This document shows positions 10,067-54,297 of a DNA stretch of 64,000 nucleotides, in pieces (position 1 is the stretch's first letter; each line of letters opens with the position of its first letter). The stretch comes from Neelides folsomi (taxonomy: Eukaryota > Arthropoda > Collembola > Neelipleona > Neelidae), in assembly GCA_034687125.1 (NCBI GenBank), contig JAQGBZ010000153.1, positions 1 through 64,000 of the forward strand, given 5' to 3'. The notes below the pieces were generated by a model. The model ran no database searches, had not been told where the DNA came from, and worked only from the letters and a program-made list of their open reading frames with translations. The translations under genes and the position numbers were made by a program.

Positions 10067-11099
10067 TCATCGAGCTTTTTTCATATTAGCACTTGAAATC
10101 TCATTTGATTCAATCCATTTTTTAAGATCTTCTGGCATTTCTGGTTTCTTTACATCAGGGTGAAACTTCTTCAAAACATCTTCAAAATCAATTTTAACGA
10201 TGGCCAACTTAACATACGCCACGGACCTCACAATGTCATCAGACAATGTTACAATTCGTTGGTCCAAATAGAGAAATTTAGAATCCCACCATACTGGTGC
10301 AGTCACAACCTATTTTAAAAAGATAATTTAATTTATTTGGGTAATAAACCTAATGAATAATCACTGAAATATGTTTTATAAGCATTAATAAAGTAATTAT
10401 TTATAACCTTATAGGGAGAAAACAGCATTAACGGAAGCCTGTACCGAATGCTATAATAATACAAAAAGATCCATTCAAATATTTATTCGTAACAGTAAGA
10501 CTCATATTGGGTTTACATACTACATTCATAAATACTGTATATGTAGAATATCTGTATTTATACCATGTTATTCTGTAATATATTTAATATATTAATAACA
10601 TATAACCTGACAGCGGAAACTGGGATCCCTCCCCGTTTCAATATATAATCCAATAGTCCAACTCTCAGTAAGTAATCAAACCTGAAAACAAGAAAATTAA
10701 CTAACTTTATAAAGACTAACTATTTCAATATCTAAAAAAAATAAATAAAAAAATTGATAAGCATCTAACCTTGAAAAATCAAATTCACGCAAAAATCGCG
10801 AATTATTCATGTGGGTGAGCATAAAATCAATGTCCGATAACATGCAAATTCCTGTATAAAGTATAAATAAATATTAGTATTTATTTGATATTGTATTATG
10901 AAGATATTTGATAAAAACATGAGCATTTATTAAATATTTAAAAATAAGACTTACCGTAAATTGAAGCAGGGGTCATGAAGGGAATCTTTTTCTTCAAATA
11001 CTTTGCATGACTGTAAGTAAAAATAACTCGAAGAAAATAATGAACATCGAAGAAAAAGTAAAGGATAATGAGACAAAACACAGCAATGTATAAAAACAT
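10067..11099 (-). CDS. THEM6-like protein (thioesterase/hotdog superfamily)
   Basis: Five exons (10955-11099, 10770-10851, 10607-10681, 10408-10450, 10067-10309) join in frame to 195 aa; human THEM6 is 208 aa. The N-terminus is a membrane or signal segment (MFLYIAVFCLIILYFFFDVHYF). The hotdog core carries SDIDFMLTHMNNSRFLREFDFSR, the best family signature, then RYRLPLMLFSPYKV and WWDSKFLYLDQRIV. The family resembles acyl-CoA thioesterases, but its enzymatic role is not established, so no substrate is assigned. I chose the ATG at 11099; an upstream GTG in the same frame is ignored. It is divergent from the microprotein gene starting at 11310. Confidence 0.85.
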
Positions 11100-11309
11100 T
11101 TTGGTTAATGTGAAAAGCACCGAAATTAAAGAGAATTACTTTGAGATTACTATTAAAGTTAAATGTTTATTGATTTTTAATGACAGAATCAGAAACGGGA
11201 ATGGGAAAACACCGCTGATGCTGCCAGTACAAATCTTTTGCAAATAATTCAAACTTTCTTTCCAGCATCCAGGTTCTCATTAACTGGATTTAAGCAATGA
11301 GTTCAATGT

Positions 11310-11769
11310 ATGGATGAGAAACATAAGGAATGGCAAAATTATAAGGTTGGAAAGTGGAGTAGACAGGTAAGATAACACTGTCTATATTGCACGCATTATA
11401 CACACTGTATTTTAACTTCTTGTACTCTCAGATACCTGTTTTCAAACCACAATGTAGGATGTCCAGGTAAGTAATATATTATACACTACAGTATAGTAGA
11501 TTCGTATATCAAGGCTCAACATTACAGAAACAGGTATTTAAGCTGGTTAAGGAAATTCATCGACCTCAAAGTCAAATGGTAAATGTAAGACTCAACTCAA
11601 ATGTTTCGATTTTCTACATTAATATTTTAAATTTAGCATAGCAGAATGCATTTCGCAATATGACTATACGTATAGAATGCATTTAGGTAATATTAATATT
11701 TTATATAAGAATTATACGCCAACAATTTAATATGTACAAATAGGTAAGAAAAATTGGACAAAAAGATAA
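11310..11769 (+). CDS. unrecognised 72-aa microprotein in five very small exons
   Basis: I do not recognise this protein. Five pieces, 11310-11366, 11432-11466, 11528-11578, 11637-11686 and 11744-11769, are each bounded by GT and AG. All phases agree (0, 2, 2, 1) and they end in TAA. Introns are 57-65 nt. The product begins MDEKHKEWQNYKVGKWSRQ, continues with IPVFKPQCRMSR, YLSWLRKFIDLKVK and CIAECISQYDYTYRMHL, and ends GKKNWTKR. It is very basic and aromatic, with three cysteines including one CX3C, and has no signal peptide or obvious membrane helix. An in-frame TGA just upstream fixes the ATG, and GATAAATAAA overlaps and follows the stop. It sits between divergent THEM6 and convergent TSC1. 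A small mitochondrial or RNA-binding protein is possible, but that is a guess. Confidence 0.6.
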
Positions 11770-12179
11770 ATAAAAAAGAATGGGTTTCCTCTCAAAAAAC
11801 AATTTTATTACTAGTTTTATTCGTATTCTTATGTATAGTTGTTACATGATGCAATGTATTGTGGTTAAAAATAATAGCTGCTATAATAATATGATGTATA
11901 GTATTCGTGTGTGATGGGTCAATGTATATATTTAATTATGCTTTATTATTCTCATAAATATAGGTAATATACTAATACAATAACGGGTAAAATATTTTAG
12001 CGAAGAAATTTTTAATAAATAACAACTTAAACTTAAGCTAAAATAAAGTTAACCTAAATATTTGTAATTTTATAATTTATGTATAACTTTTTATATTTAT
12101 GTTATATTTGTAATATGTATGTTAAGAATTATGTCAAGATACCAAGTTTCGATTGTGACATTTGGATTTGTGATGTAAA
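11770..12179. other. intergenic, converging 3' ends
   Basis: About 410 bp of AT-rich sequence between the microprotein stop and the TSC1 stop. It should contain the 3' untranslated regions of both genes. No further exon is seen. Confidence 0.5.
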
Positions 12180-15100
12180 CTAAGAATCCCCAGTTGTTGC
12201 TCTATCAATAACAGCTTGAAGATCTCTTATGGCTTCTGCTGGAGCATCAAATTGGGGACTTCCAAAGATGAAAATTCCTGCTTGTCGATCAGGCGAAAGC
12301 CCTCCGTATCCTCCGGCACTTGCAGCTGACTCGACATCCGAATGGTTACTTCCTCCACCACCATTAGAATTAGGAGATGAACTCGAGTTGACTCTTCGAC
12401 TTCCTCGGGTCACTTGAGTGCTGCTATAACTCTTAAGAGCAAGTTGATGCTGCAAGTTGAGGATTTCTAACTCAAGACGATGATTCGCAGCTTTCACTGC
12501 TTCATATTTGTCTTCAACTGCTTTGAGTTGAACAACGTATTCGGAAACAGTATCATGCACTTTTTTCCTCATGTCATTCATCACAAGATCTTTCTTTACA
12601 AGTTGAGTCTCGAGGTCACGAACAAGACCACGAGCAGCCTCACATTGACTATTAGAATTTTCAAGTTGATTCTTTAAATTCCCAATTTCGTCTTCGGCAG
12701 TCAATCTAATTAATAATAAATATTTTACAAATTAACATTTTTAATGTTTAATTTATAGCTAGAGATCATGTAGGCTTTCGACTAAAACTGATATGATTTT
12801 TGTATTTAATTGTATACCTAAACTAAATCATAAAATATAATAGGTATGTAAAATTACCTATAATCCTCCATTTCCTCAAGTATGAATTTGGAATTGTCGT
12901 GAAGTATTGAATTTTCCATATATTCTTCTCTCTTCCTAATAAGCTCTCCTAAAAGAATAATTTCTTTCTGAGCAGCTCCAAGAGCTTTTTTGAGTCCCGA
13001 ATTAACTTCTAGGGTTCTTTGGGCATGTCGAACTTCACTCTGAAGTGTGAAAAGTTCAGCTTTCTTTTCATCAGTCTCTTTCTTCAAAATATTAAATTCT
13101 TCGAGTAATTTTGAATATTTATTCTCATCTTGTGATTTCCCCTCTTGGAGTTGTCTCAACGTTTCCCGTGATTTTACAACCTTCGTTTCAAGAGATTCAA
13201 CAACTGAAGACAATTCCTTTTCTCGTCCCATAGCTGAATTCCGTTGAATCAAAAGTTCTTTCTTTAAATTCGCAACTTCTTTTTCCAATGAGTGAATTTG
13301 ACCTCTCAAGCTATTATTATTTTCTTGGATTCCTTCAAGTTGCCTCAACTTTCCTGCAAGACGTCGATTCCTCAAAGTAAATGCCTCACGCCGATGGCGT
13401 TCGAACATTAATTGACAATGGAGAAGTTCAACTTGACCTTTGAGAACAATTAGCTGTTCTTCAGTAGATCTTGGAATTGATTTCCCATGAAGTGCAGCAG
13501 CTTTCGACAAACAATTATCAAGGAGAAGATGCGGAGAAGGAAAATTGTCATCGTAGGTCGAACTTGGGATTATTCCTTCAAAGAGATGTTCATAAGGTTG
13601 AATCGGGACGATTCCTTCTTTGGGCTTTTTAACTTCAACCATTGGAGATTCATCCCTTGATGACACTTTAATTTGATCGAGTTTATTATTCAGTTTACTC
13701 ATATCAGGGCAAGAAAACGATCTCTTCACTCTTGATCTATTCAGAGCAGGAGGAAAATGGCAAATTGAAGATGGTGATGTTCCAGGTGATGAAGATCCAC
13801 ATTGACTATAAAAACGAAGGCGAGAAACTCTCTTGGCAAAATCGAGCATTGATCTAAAATACATTAATGAAACAATCATATTAATTAAACATTTTAATCA
13901 TCTTTAGAAAATAATAATAATACCAAATATCATCTTATAGTAGATTTTTAATAAAAATTAAAGGAAATTAAATGAGTACTTATGATCAGGCATATGAAGT
14001 CCACCAGAAGGGCAAGTTGATTGGCATTCAGCTGTTGGATCATCTTCATTCTCTTCATGATGAATCATAAGAGAATGATGCGTATAGTGAGGAGTCAAAG
14101 GTCCACCACTTGCTTCATGACTCGGGATAGTTTGAAACTCATTAGGATTCTCTGTTGGTTGTAATGGAATTGTAATCGGACTTGGAAGTTGTCGCGGCTC
14201 AAAGTTCAGAACCGAAGCTGAACTTTCTGTCCCGTCGGGATTCCTAGCTTGTTGTTCTTGTAGCACCTAATTATTAAAATCTCAGCTTAATCTGATTCTC
14301 TTTCTTTAAGGTAAGGGAAGGTGGAAGCAACCCAAAATGAAGCAAAAAGAAGCAAAACCTTTTGGAGCCGCTGAAATATAGCGGAATCACGTCGTGGAGC
14401 TCCGACAGTGTCAAAAATTGAATCACGGCGATGAAACAAAGGAAGTCCCTCAGGTTGATTTGGAACATCTCGTGGAAGCGGAGAGGAGGGAACTGAATTG
14501 GATGGAGTAACTGTGGGTGTCGGCGGGATAGACTTGTTAGAACCGCTACCAAAAGCGAGCTGCATCACAGCTGCCGAATTGGACGGCAACTTAAATGAAA
14601 TTTGCTCCCTTTCCTAATTAGTAATGAGCAAATTAAAGACTAAACACCCGGCAAATTAAACATAGCATCACTCATGAGCATTAGACGCCCACGCCCCGCT
14701 TCAAAACATAAAATCATAAAACTGAACTCAAGAATAAATAACGAAAACTATATTTCTTTTCTTTTAAAAAATCAGACACATCAAGACCAAACAAACAAAA
14801 TGATTAATTTCATTATTGATATTATTGACACAATATTATTATTATTGGTCATGTAAATAAAATAAACCTTGACAGGAGTAGCAATTGGAGTATTTTCTGG
14901 TGTTGCTTCCATAGCCGTCTCTGGCGGTGTAACTTTTGGAGGATAATTTACAACAACACCTGAAATTGGTGTTGGTGGAGCTGAGCCTGTATCATCAATC
15001 CAATTTGCTAAAGTGTTGAAGTCTGTCATTGAATTTAAACTTTTCCCAATAAATGGTGACAATGTTTTGTCGTTAAAGGATGATGACACTGACATTGAAT

Positions 15101-16645
15101 TGGCTCCAGGACATTCTAAAAGAAATTCATAATAGTTTCACAATACTAGAAGAAGAGAAGCCAATAAATAAATCTTAATTGAACAATAAAAGTTAAAATT
15201 ACCTGTTAGTGTGAAAATAGGGGGATCAAAATTTGATCCAAATCGAGATTTTCCGTTGTTATTAATGCTACTTGCACTTGATTCCTCTGCATAGCCAGAC
15301 TCAAATAAATCCAGAGATATTTTTGCACATTCGGCCATGACATCATGAGGCTCTTTGGATCTCCATCGAGAAGTGTACAATTCTCCTTCTTTAGAAGCAG
15401 TGACAAGCAGAGGATGCATTTTCACTGTTTCCAACATTGGCTAAAATGCAAAATATTGTAATGTAAATATTTAAAGATGTATTTTTGTTTAATTAAAGAA
15501 TTGAAAATTTGAATTTGCTGTTTATTAAAATGTACAATTACTTTTATTGTATGGAGAAAGACGTATTTTTTATCCTGTGCACTGAATGTATGTCGAAGAT
15601 ACGAAAGAAAGTTGCAGGGATACATCGCATAGAGTCGATGAAATAAAGAATAAAGAGCAACTTGAAGATGTAAAACATGTTCTTCGGCAATTTTGTTCGA
15701 GTGAGTCCATGCTGCTACCCGTCTAAAATAAGTTATTTAAAATAATAGTAATTTAATCATTTTGAGAAATAATTTAATTTAGGGGTATCTTACCCAAAGA
15801 CTTCAAAAATATCGTTTGTATAATTTATTAAGTATGTCGGAATGATTGGCAGAAGTGTGATGATAGTTAGAAGTGATGTTAACAAGTTAACGGTATCAGT
15901 CTCTGTCTAATGATTTCGAAAAAATTAATGCGAATTGAGAAAAGCTTAATTAATTATTTTAACACACATGAATATTTATAGTAAAAGTGATAATCTTACT
16001 CTAAGAACTTTAAAAAGCTCTTTAATGAGTGAATGCTGAACAATTTTATATAGCCAAGAAGGAGCTTTTCGAACCAAATAGCCCAAAAACGTCAAACTTT
16101 GTTTTCGACTTGGAACCAGACGAATACCTTCACAAATTCTGTGAAATAAATTAAACATGATTACCTTAATGTTACTTAATAGAGTGATGTTATCAAAATT
16201 ATATCATCCTATGTATATATTATTTAACAATTTAACTATTATAATGAATTTACTTTTCAATGAGATATTTGTCATGTGGTTCTCTTGATATTCCACATAA
16301 AATCTCTAGACATCGAGTAGAATTAGTCTGAAGATAATAATCGAATAATCCTCCAACAAGCCACGACTCTTTAGCTGTAAAACAAAATTAATTAAAGACA
16401 ACTTTAAATGTCGTTGAAGAAAAATGTATAATCACTTAATATAGCAATATGGGTAAAAATAAAAAGATATTGACTACTTGCGCTCTATTATTTTACGTAA
16501 ACTTACTTTTATTGAAATTTTCTGTGATTAGATTTTTAATTTCTTCCACTTGCTGAACATGATTTGATTCTAAAACATCGAAAAGTTCTCCGATGTCCAA
16601 ATTTGCTGTAGTCATTTTAGTTATTTGTTCCTGGCTGTGTGCCAT
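12180..16645 (-). CDS. TSC1: hamartin (tuberous sclerosis complex 1)
   Basis: TSC1 stabilises TSC2 in the Rheb-GAP complex that restrains TORC1 on lysosomes. Eleven exons (16507-16645, 16254-16374, 16000-16138, 15794-15906, 15542-15722, 15203-15440, 14868-15115, 14359-14613, 13980-14266, 12858-13853, 12180-12705) join in frame to 1080 aa; Drosophila and human are about 1100 and 1164. The N-terminal HEAT-like core reads GELFDVLESN, GLFDYYLQTNSTRCLEIL, EPHDKYLIEKI and GYLVRKAPSWL. A Ser/Pro-rich middle follows (TPPETAMEATPENTPIATP). From about residue 700 a long coiled coil carries the family signature ELLHCQLMFERHRREAFTLR next to RNRRLAGKL. The tail is Ser/Gly-rich. The ATG at 16645 opens MAHSQEQITKM; a second in-frame ATG lies ten codons on. 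The gene is intact. Confidence 0.93.
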
Positions 16646-26688: not shown

Positions 26689-29600
26689 TTATAGTAAGAA
26701 CAAAGGTGCGGACTGCAGATGCACCGGAGGTGGAGTGACTTTATAAACATGACTTTGATCTTGATATAAAGTCAGAGGAGCGTGGAGGATCTCGAATCTC
26801 GAAGGACTATGATTGATCTTTGGTGGTCCTTGATATTTTTGAACAAACTGCTGTGGTGCGCCATAGCCTATAATACACACAGATTATATATTTTTCATAT
26901 CATCAATCATCATCATCATATCTAAACAATGAAAGTAAATAAGATTTAAAAGAAAACATTTTAAAAAAATCATTTAACTGAAAGCAGCTACTGTTATCAG
27001 AAATTATAATTCTTTACCGTTTGATGGTTGACGATAAAAGTTATCAGTAGGAGGACCATATGTATCGACAGTCTGAAATTAAAAAAGTTAATTGTTTAAT
27101 AATTTAATTACAATTATGATTATAATTAAATAATTAATGTAGAACGTGGTAAAGCCAATTGAATTTTAAACAAGGGGCTTACAGTTTGAGAAGTAAAAAA
27201 TGAATTTGTTTGTTGTGGTGGCGGATTATTGTAGCCAGTGTTGAATTCCTTATTTGGCGGCAAGTACTCGTTACTCTTTTGCGAATTGAATTCATTTTTT
27301 GGTGGGAGATATTCATTTTGATTGTTTTGGGATTGTGAAGGTGGGAGATATTGATTGTTGTTTTTCCCTTGATTCGAATACCCCTGATTGTTCTGTGGCG
27401 GTGGGAGATATTCATTGTTGTTGTTATTTCCCTGTTGGTACCCTTGATTTTGTGGTTGTTGAGGAGGTGGAAGATATTCATTCGTTTTTTGAACATAACC
27501 ACCGGATTGGTATCCCTGATTGCTTGAAAATTGTGGACCATTATGTTGATAACCTTGATTGTTTGTATTTGTATATCCTTGAGTGGTGAAAATTTCGGGA
27601 TTTGAAACATATCCTCCTTGATTTCCAGAATAACCTCCTTGGTTGCTGGAATATCCTTCTTGGTTATTTGAAAAACTTCCAATAGAAGTTGAATATCCAC
27701 CAGGTCCATTAAATAAACCTTCTTGGTTTATTGTGAAAGTTTGGACATTGTTGTTATTATTATAACCCCCTTGATTCCCTTGATAGTTTCCATTTGAATA
27801 ACCATCATTTGAAAATCCAGTTCCTGAATAACCATTGTTGTTATTGTTTGAATAACCGCCTTGGTTCGAGTAACCTCCTTGGTTTGAATAGCCTTGGCTT
27901 TCAGGATATCCAGTGTTCTTTGGAGGAAGATATTCATTTTCTTTCGGAGTGAATTCATTTTTCGGGGGGAGATATTCAATCTCTTCCTTTAATGCTTCCT
28001 TCATGGGTGGCAAATATTCTTTGTTCTTTGGAGGAACTCCATCTTCAGTATCCGGTGGCCCATAAGAAGGAACGGGTTTGGGTGGCAAATACCCGTTATC
28101 TTTCTTTGGTGGCAAATAGGAGTTTTCGTCCTTTGGTGGAAGATATTCACTGTCTTTAGGTGGGCCGTATGATGGCTTTGGAGTTGGAGCTTCGTTAGTT
28201 GGTGGAAGATAAACTTCACCGTCCATCACATTTGGCTTCTTAGATCCTTTGTCTTTATCTGAAGATTTCTCTGGCGCCTTTGCTTCTTTGTTGGGTGGTG
28301 CGAGTTCCATTTCAATTATTTCTTTTGCTCCCTCGCCATCTTCTCCTCTCTGTAAAATTAACGTAATTACAATTAGCATGAATTACTTAATAAAATGACT
28401 AGATTAATTAAAATATAACAATTATTAATATCTTTATTAATGATGTAAATACAGTATTAAATTGATAAAATTAATAAAATTAAAGAGTAGGATGAGTAGG
28501 ATTAATAACGAAGATGATCAGCAACCGCGCAGCCTGGTAGCCCCGTTGATTGGTAGTTGGTTAGTGATGGGCATTAGTGAGATAAAAAATAAAAAAGGTA
28601 AACTGCCTTCTCATCTGCATCATCATTTTCATCAACTTTGTCATCAATGTCAGTGCTATCTAGATCTATATTCACCGAAGGTCTGTTCACGATGAGCCCC
28701 GAAGTCTTTGCTTCTGACCCTTCGTTTTCTGCTTCATCGTTGGCTTCTTCGGATGAAACCGGAGCTTCCGTCGTGGTGGTCGCTTTCTTTGATTTCTTGT
28801 TCTTCTTCGACTTTGACTTCTTCGATTTCGGTTTCTTGGTCGTTGACGGCGCTGACATTTCTTCTTCCTCCTCTTCATCTCCAGCTACAAAATCTGCATT
28901 GTCTTCGTCTTGTGTGAGGGCTTGTGCTTGTGGGACCAAGTTTGTATTTTCCCTATCTTCGTAATCCGGAGGGAGAGAAAAGGCCTGTGCAGTTCCTTCA
29001 TTAATATTAAATCCAGTTGGTGTTCCTTCAAAAGGTGAAGTGTCAGGGCTCGATTGAGCAATTCCAAAAATTGGCATTCCACGGTCGTTAACTGGCACAT
29101 TAACTGGTCCGTTAACTGGTCCATGAACTGGAGCTTCGTGTGTTCCAGCTTGACCGTGATCGTGCCCTGAAGATCTGTATTGTGGGTCAAGCGGGCCTCG
29201 AAGTTCTTTTGGAATGATCGTTGGAGCAACGCGGAGAATTGCTGGTGGAACTCGCATGGCCGGGAACTTCAAATACTCACCGAGCTGAAAGTTTAATTAT
29301 TAATTAAAAATAACAAAAGGAGTCAATTCGTTATCAGTTATCATTTTTCTTCAATGAAATCATCAAGTTAATGAAGGTATAAAATAAATGTACAGTAAAA
29401 ATATGTATCATATTGTCATTGTTATATTGTATGACTCATGTACAGCATATCATTGATGAGAGGAAATGGTGAATCCTGATTGAGTAATTGGCACGCGGTT
29501 TTACTCTAGTTAAAAACCCATGATTTTTTATCAACTGGGAAATCTCGTTGCCCTTGCAATTTCATAAAATGAAAATTATTGGTGTGTATTTTATCTCAAT

Positions 29601-52842: not shown

Positions 52843-54297
52843 ATGAAATATCAAAATATATTTAAACAATTTCTAATTTTCTCTCAAATTGTAGGTTGTT
52901 TTCCATTAACTATAAAACAACACTACGGCCAATGGTCAAATTTTCCAATTAAAGCTTTGCTTTTTTCTCATAATATAATTATTTTATTTTTAATTTTGCT
53001 CTTAAATTTTGAATATTCGATTGGAGGGTTAAATAATTCTATAACAGTTGAATTAGCATGGCGTGGGTCGACAATTGTCGCATATTTTATTTCGTCTTTG
53101 TCTGGAATCGTTTCTCTTATTTTAGCATCAAGAACGCGAACCCTTTTAATAGAAATGCATTCTTACCAACAAATGCATTTAACGCTTGATCAACAACCAT
53201 CTAAAAAAATTAAGATTTTTTTCATAATTTCAACCATAATTTTCCTTCTTCATGTAGTTAATATTTTAAATTCAAATTGGACTTACTTTTTAAATAACAC
53301 GAATTTTGCTGGCGGATTTATCATATTCAATTTTCTCACATCAAATCCTCAAGTCATTGCTTTTTGCACATATTTATCCGAATTAATTCAAATTTTGATT
53401 GATTATCGTCTTTTTCTATTGACAATAATATTTATTTCATTTGTAAATGACTCTTACGATTTTTTCATCGACGACTTAACTAAAATGCTTTTCAATGAAA
53501 AGAGTTTTAAAAAATGTAAAAACATCAAAATGAATTTAAGTGGACATTTGATTCCTGAAAAAACATTAATAAAAGATGGATCTTTTATGTCATGTCGCTG
53601 GAAAAAAATAAAAAATATTTATGAAAAAGCCAATTTTATAATTGGATCTCAATTGCTGTACATTCTCCCTTCTTCAATATTCATTATTGTTATGAGGAGT
53701 TGTACAATCTTAATTCCAGATGTCTCAGGAGATTGGAATTATATCAGCAGGAGTTCTTCTGTAATAACTGGGTTTCATTATATTATAAGGGTTGTCATCT
53801 TTGTTGAACTTGGACATTACTTTCAAGCAAGGGTGAGTTACATACATTACATTAAATAAAATGACAATGATAATTTACATAGTTATTAATTATTTAATTA
53901 TCCAGGTGAAAGCTTGCAAAATAAAATCTAAAGCTTGCATCTTAAAAATAATAAGCAAAATGAAAAACAATAAAAATGATGAATTTAAATCTTTGGGAAG
54001 AATCAAAGTAATTTTTGATTTGCCTTTGGAAATTTCAGCATGTAGATTTTTTACAATAAATCGAAGTATGATTTCATCGGTAATGAAAAATTGCTTCAAG
54101 ATCATATCATGTTTTAAGTAAAATATTTTTTGACATTTTAGATCATTGCAACCACTTTAACATATCTGATTATAATGCTTCAGCTTTTTTATTCTACAAC
54201 TCTTACGACAAACGCACTTAATACAAATTCAACAATTGAAAATGATGAAAACTGTCAAAACATTGTAAATAATTCAACGTTATCTATTATTCATTGA
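52843..54297 (+). CDS. gustatory receptor family seven-helix chemoreceptor
   Basis: Family role: insect gustatory receptors are ligand-gated channels in sensory neuron membranes with an intracellular N-terminus. Three exons (52843-53832, 53906-54079, 54142-54297) join in phase 0 to 439 aa, a normal Gr length. Several hydrophobic helices are visible, e.g. SHNIIILFLILLLNF, FFIISTIIFLLHVVNIL and LLYILPSSIFIIVM. The end of exon 2 and start of exon 3 give the family signature: RFFTINRSMISSV, then a final helix with T395-Y396, five hydrophobic residues and Q402-L403. This is the TYhhhhhQF motif with F replaced by L. The phase-0 introns near the 3' end are typical of Gr genes. The ligand is unknown. 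A 30-residue Asn/Thr-rich tail after the motif is longer than usual. It is a single copy here. Confidence 0.82.

Follow-up and report, generated by a model that had tools for sequence, protein, structure and literature searches.

Organization of the THEM6–TSC1 interval

The window analysed here is a stretch of 64,000 nucleotides (nt) of contig JAQGBZ010000153.1 from the collembolan Neelides folsomi, and the element in question is a candidate five-exon microprotein gene on the + strand at positions 11310–11769. The candidate is flanked on one side by a THEM6-like thioesterase gene (10067–11099, − strand), identified through an exon chain and through 4HBT_2 matches on two exons that fall below the Pfam cut-off, and on the other by the 11-exon TSC1 (hamartin) gene (12180–16645, − strand), whose longest exon matches Hamartin (PF04388) with an E-value of 3.3e-7. 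The placement between THEM6 and TSC1 given by the original prediction is thus confirmed. The candidate is arranged head-to-head with the THEM6-like gene, with 211 bases separating the two start codons, and tail-to-tail with TSC1. The five segments were rebuilt exactly, with exons of 57, 35, 51, 50 and 26 nt and introns of 65, 61, 58 and 57 nt, and display AG/GT borders, matching phases and a frame of 72 codons followed by a stop. The 72-residue product, MDEKHKEWQNYKVGKWSRQIPVFKPQCRMSRNRYLSWLRKFIDLKVKCIAECISQYDYTYRMHLGKKNWTKR, contains the CX3C pair in the form CIAEC, and all the structural elements that had been described are present in the sequence.

Splice sites were scored with models built from 95 confident introns, taken from the window and from 20 stretches of 10 kb on other contigs (264 kb in total) and accepted only if flanked by two well-scoring exons. 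Proposed exon 1 (11310–11366) extends from the ATG to the donor CAG/GTAAGA and has a purine fraction of 0.75. Intron 1 (11367–11431), by eye the most intron-like of the four, terminates at the acceptor TTCTTGTACTCTCAG, which lies at the 19th percentile of real acceptors. Exon 2 (11432–11466) ends at the donor CAG/GTAAGT; these first two donors are stronger than all 95 reference donors, while the other two lie at the 64th and 80th percentile. Intron 2 (11467–11527) closes with the weak acceptor GGCTCAACATTACAG (3rd percentile), and an alternative in-frame acceptor at 11552 scores 3.09 versus 1.35 for the one at 11528. Exon 3 (11528–11578) carries the donor ATG/GTAAAT at its end and another strong donor internally, at 11534. 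It is followed by intron 3 (11579–11636), with the acceptor ATATTTTAAATTTAG at the 78th percentile, and by exon 4 (11637–11686), which together with the final bases of exon 3 encodes the CX3C pair and which ends at the donor TAG/GTAATA. Intron 4 (11687–11743) again has a weak acceptor, AATATGTACAAATAG (9th percentile), and its border with exon 5 reads AG/GTAAGA at 11744, a donor in its own right with a score of 6.3. Exon 5 (11744–11769) ends with the stop TAA, which is overlapped by an AATAAA that runs past it.

The proposed start codon has a T at position −3, a weak context. A short upstream frame (11297–11317, + strand), whose own ATG has a purine at −3, runs across the proposed start in a different frame, and the upstream ATGs at 11297 and 11306 both terminate at the TGA that overlaps it. 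The N-terminus of the product, MDEKHKEWQNYK, is charged and, judged by eye, displays no hydrophobic or signal-like stretch.

Splice motifs, open paths and coding signal

The best chain of the region, which uses the acceptor at 11552, reaches a splice score of 40.8, and the exact path of the original prediction, through the acceptor at 11528, scores 39.0. The excess is mostly contributed by donors. Six donors scoring at least 5 are packed within 378 bases, the densest such group in the 264 kb, and the only two copies of CAGGTAAG in the window are both among them. When the donor threshold is lowered to 4, the six of the region are equalled or exceeded at several other places, with a maximum of seven in L025. 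Donors stronger than real ones, combined with acceptors that are weak in three of the four introns, make the arrangement more like a cluster of donor motifs than a set of matched introns. The density of YAGGTA is likewise the highest in the 264 kb, with seven occurrences in 600 bases compared with a mean of 0.84 per kb; six of the seven point the same way, and nearly all lie on the + strand. A search of 11121–12179 revealed no family of direct repeats, and no tandem array scoring at least 30 overlaps 11310–11769.

The closure of five segments into one frame had been considered unlikely by chance, an argument that fails on the counts. Under loose limits, the single ATG at 11310 already opens 2332 five-exon GT/AG chains that reach a stop. 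With exons restricted to 26–57 nt and introns to 40–120 nt, 233 chains are present in the 460-base region, and such a chain occurs at 114 non-overlapping places on the two strands of the window. At least one was also present in 28 of 300 dinucleotide shuffles of the region, a test biased against chance because the shuffles lose the terminal ATG and stop. AG/GT borders and phase match alone are thus weak criteria, ordinary in this window. Of the 110 splice paths that run through the candidate's own sites in the real sequence, 21 stay open across four junctions, and some open path was found in 112 of 1000 shuffles in which the splice signals were held fixed. Among alternative chains of three to seven exons, the top three of each never gained more than about 4 nats of coding score.

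The coding signal of the candidate is negative, with log-odds of −3.3 nats on the spliced frame and −4.6 nats exon by exon. Of 88 blocks derived from length-selected open reading frames (ORFs), eight score −3.3 or lower; these blocks were relied on in place of a comparison with 150 coding blocks, which was set aside as circular because those blocks had been selected by coding score. The synonymous component is −3.7; of 1150 random chains 53% attain this value, and 10% of real blocks fall below it. Frame 0 is the sole open frame of the spliced sequence, the other two having synonymous scores of −7.8 and −6.5. The pooled exons have a guanine-plus-cytosine (GC) fraction of 0.35, compared with a median of 0.43 for exons selected by their coding score, and no coding-like + strand segment of at least 4 nats occurs between 11226 and 12211.

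All four introns, at 57–65 nt, are shorter than 94 of the 95 confident introns and lie below the usual length range of this genome, in which the shortest confident intron measures 46 nt, the next 67 nt and the 5th percentile 72 nt. They are also shorter than every top-model intron of the neighbouring genes (71–254 nt in the TSC1 exon chain, 109–138 nt in SDR and 88–156 nt in THEM6). The first two trainings of the gene finder merged neighbouring genes into chains of 82 and 137 exons, and their length statistics were discarded. Under the full gene model, with the lengths of this genome, the candidate scores −30.9 nats, a value obtained with an exon-length prior that is unfair to micro-exons; the same model places no positive-scoring gene in the interval. 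The path through the acceptor at 11552 has an intron of 85 nt, a typical length.

No relative of the product was found. DNA and protein searches of the 75.1-Mb assembly (840 contigs) returned the locus itself only, in a search that would miss diverged copies with exons this short. There was no Pfam match above cut-off, no match among solved structures up to an E-value of 10 and no relative in bacterial and archaeal genomes; this lack is weak evidence because the collections searched are not meant to hold eukaryote relatives. A Pfam match to Glyco_hydro_cc (E-value 0.028) was rejected as below its cut-off. A match in a viral contig, L026 (26 residues, 46%), with an E-value that refers to seven stretches only, overlaps a 147-residue ORF of the locus in antisense and was rejected as chance.

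Origin of the splice-like cluster

The most likely explanation of 11310–11769, advanced here tentatively, is a chance open path through a cluster of donor motifs. The interval between THEM6 and TSC1 would be ordinary AT-rich intergenic DNA with a local cluster of YAGGTA-type motifs resembling donors and, with AG and GT abundant, one of the many paths through this cluster would be open for 72 codons. From the motifs and their density, the multiple open paths, the missing coding signal and the short introns, all of which are observed, we infer that the cluster is unused as introns and yields no protein.

A number of observations weigh against a chance origin. The score of 40.8 ranks first among 475 places in 528 kb of strand, 10.9 nats above the runner-up at 29.9, and it exceeds every simulation, the maxima being 32.0 in 5.12 Mb of order-2 sequence and 34.0 in 7.68 Mb of order-4 sequence. 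The score of the predicted path itself, 39.0, is about a typical total for real introns, exceeding 66% of random sums of four. Among 1000 shuffles that preserved the splice signals, 6 kept that path open for at least 60 codons over four junctions, 20 contained an open path of at least 75 codons and 2 had at least 21 open paths; the frame of the candidate is thus modestly unexpected. The purine fraction is 0.63 in the exons and 0.49 in the introns, a contrast found in 0.34% of random chains and noticed after the fact; the medians are 0.535 for real exons and 0.474 for real introns. The amino-acid component of the coding score, −2.1, is better than that of 83% of random chains, with 11% of real blocks lower. 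In the real THEM6 gene one exon scores −0.8 and two more, each taken in the best of its three frames, score −0.4 and 0.4, so that a low coding score is weak evidence against a gene. Finally, 19 of 389 introns measure 65 nt or less in a looser set, which was dropped because its genes had merged.

The outlying splice score is robust. The candidate remained first after the site models were retrained on the window only (27 introns; 36.2) or on the other loci only (68 introns; 41.3), and reversed or complemented real sequence reached a maximum of 32.1. Under wider limits (exons of 15–150 nt, introns of 40–200 nt) a chain in the THEM6 gene came first with 47.7 and the region second with 41.3, the latter being a longer chain that ends at 11914; the corresponding 528-kb simulation had a maximum of 37.2 and six places at 35 or more. 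In the 7.68 Mb of order-4 simulation, 217, 67, 21, 4 and 0 places scored at least 26, 28, 30, 32 and 34, respectively. Arithmetic extrapolation of this tail gives a chain of 40.8 in about 2 of 10,000 windows, or about 0.25 per 75-Mb genome. The rarity of the candidate has to be weighed with the fact that a scan singles out the oddest spots, and the purine, shuffle and score measures that favour a real feature were all made after this spot had been chosen.

Two AGGTAAG motifs at the spacing of the candidate occur seven times in 75 Mb (67 in a backward control). The seven matches comprise the candidate, two repeat arrays (by eye) and four other loci, which were scored as stretches of 3 kb. At one of these four, L035, a five-exon chain scores 35.7 on the strand opposite to that by which the locus was selected; the best chain among the remaining non-repeat loci scores 26.8, and the two repeat arrays score 27.7 and 19.2. 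The simulations may therefore underestimate the tail of high scores in real sequence, unless L035 is itself a gene. The chain at L035 spans 1057–1669, consists of short exons and has a coding score of −5.9.

A close rival, and a realistic possibility, is a + strand transcription unit that starts near 11250–11310, divergent from THEM6, and is spliced into a non-coding RNA. Some of the predicted sites would be used, 11367–11431 being the best, and the exons may differ from those proposed, for instance with the acceptor at 11552 in place of 11528, or without intron 4. Such a transcript would accommodate the outlying splice score and its persistence after retraining, the purine contrast between exons and introns, the absent coding signal and a start overlapped by upstream ATGs; the higher-scoring path through 11552, with its intron of typical length, also argues for it. 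It is opposed by the rarity of introns of 57–65 nt in this genome and by the three weak acceptors. Five short exons within 460 bases are, moreover, unusual for a non-coding RNA.

The gene of the original prediction, an orphan of five exons encoding a basic protein of 72 residues that would be young or fast-evolving and hence without normal codon usage or relatives, is unlikely. The splice-like signals do exceed the local background in both strength and density, and the spot therefore merited a second look. A protein-coding five-exon gene, however, is unsupported, given the negative coding score, the random-like codon use, the short introns, the weak acceptors and the other open paths. Points in its favour are the small number of shuffles that keep its own path open, the excess of open paths and their length over most shuffles, a frame 0 that alone is open and whose synonymous score is better than those of the other two frames, the strong donors, the AATAAA at the stop, and the lack of a clear coding score in the real THEM6 exons as well. 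These are set against the negative score of the full gene model, whose prior penalises micro-exons, the weak start context with its overlapping upstream ATGs, and the absence of any paralogue or relative in the collections searched. More improbable still is a single-copy orphan micro-exon gene, with all exons below 20 codons and introns of about minimum length, that arose in the short gap separating two conserved genes in a compact, arthropod-like genome and that encodes a basic CX3C protein of either 64 or 72 residues through the alternative in-frame acceptors at 11552 and 11528.

That the YAGGTA motifs form a transcription-factor binding cluster upstream of THEM6, of a Zelda/TAGteam-like or ZEB/Snail E-box-like kind, is very improbable, for although their density is the highest in the 264 kb, six of the seven share one orientation, CAGGTAG (the optimum) does not occur at 11100–12200, and the bases following the motif lean to a donor-like GTAAG.

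If the candidate were a gene, it would exemplify a class that standard gene finders overlook. As it stands, the locus illustrates how little weight AG/GT borders and phase match carry in AT-rich DNA, and that they have to be judged jointly from the strength of the sites, the length of the introns, codon use and genome-wide selection.

Known micro-exon systems and further features of the window

The candidate resembles the schistosome micro-exon genes (MEG), which PMC10526429 describes as having exons of 3–81 bp, introns of up to 5 kbp and secreted products, in its very short exons (26–57 nt), its small size and a product without relatives. In contrast to the long MEG introns, those of the candidate measure 57–65 nt, and its N-terminus is charged, unlike the secreted MEG proteins. 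With the bicycle genes of aphids it shares an arthropod host, several micro-exons and discovery through gene structure rather than sequence. It differs from them in possessing CIAEC and no CYC motif, in having an N-terminus that is not signal-like by eye, and in that one copy was found in its own genome, by searches that would miss diverged copies. Splice-related sequences matter for de novo and orphan genes, according to PMC9911349. The open frame of the candidate within non-coding-like sequence is reminiscent of such genes arising from spliced long non-coding RNA, with the difference that the candidate is known here from genomic sequence alone.

In the THEM6-like gene, the highest-scoring chain of the scan under permissive limits includes exons at 10955–11099, 10770–10851 and 10607–10681. 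The first of these, probably the first coding exon, encodes a hydrophobic N-terminal stretch and has a coding score of only −0.8; it was found by the permissive chain and missed by the full gene model, which began the gene later. Between the THEM6-like gene and the candidate lies a GC-richer patch (11184–11225) with a coding-like + strand segment, QNQKREWENTADAA, of 7.2 nats, where segments of at least 7 nats are expected about 0.1 times per kb per strand. A fair acceptor at 11187 lies beside this segment, and the patch could be a promoter or a 5′ untranslated region.

Two long ORFs elsewhere in the window have a tentative reading by eye. The single ORF of 338 codons at 52843–53859 is hydrophobic and looks chemoreceptor-like, which would point to an arthropod. 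The ORF at 27126–28382 contains repeated EYLPP/YGPP and GGYSNQ motifs and looks cuticle-protein-like.
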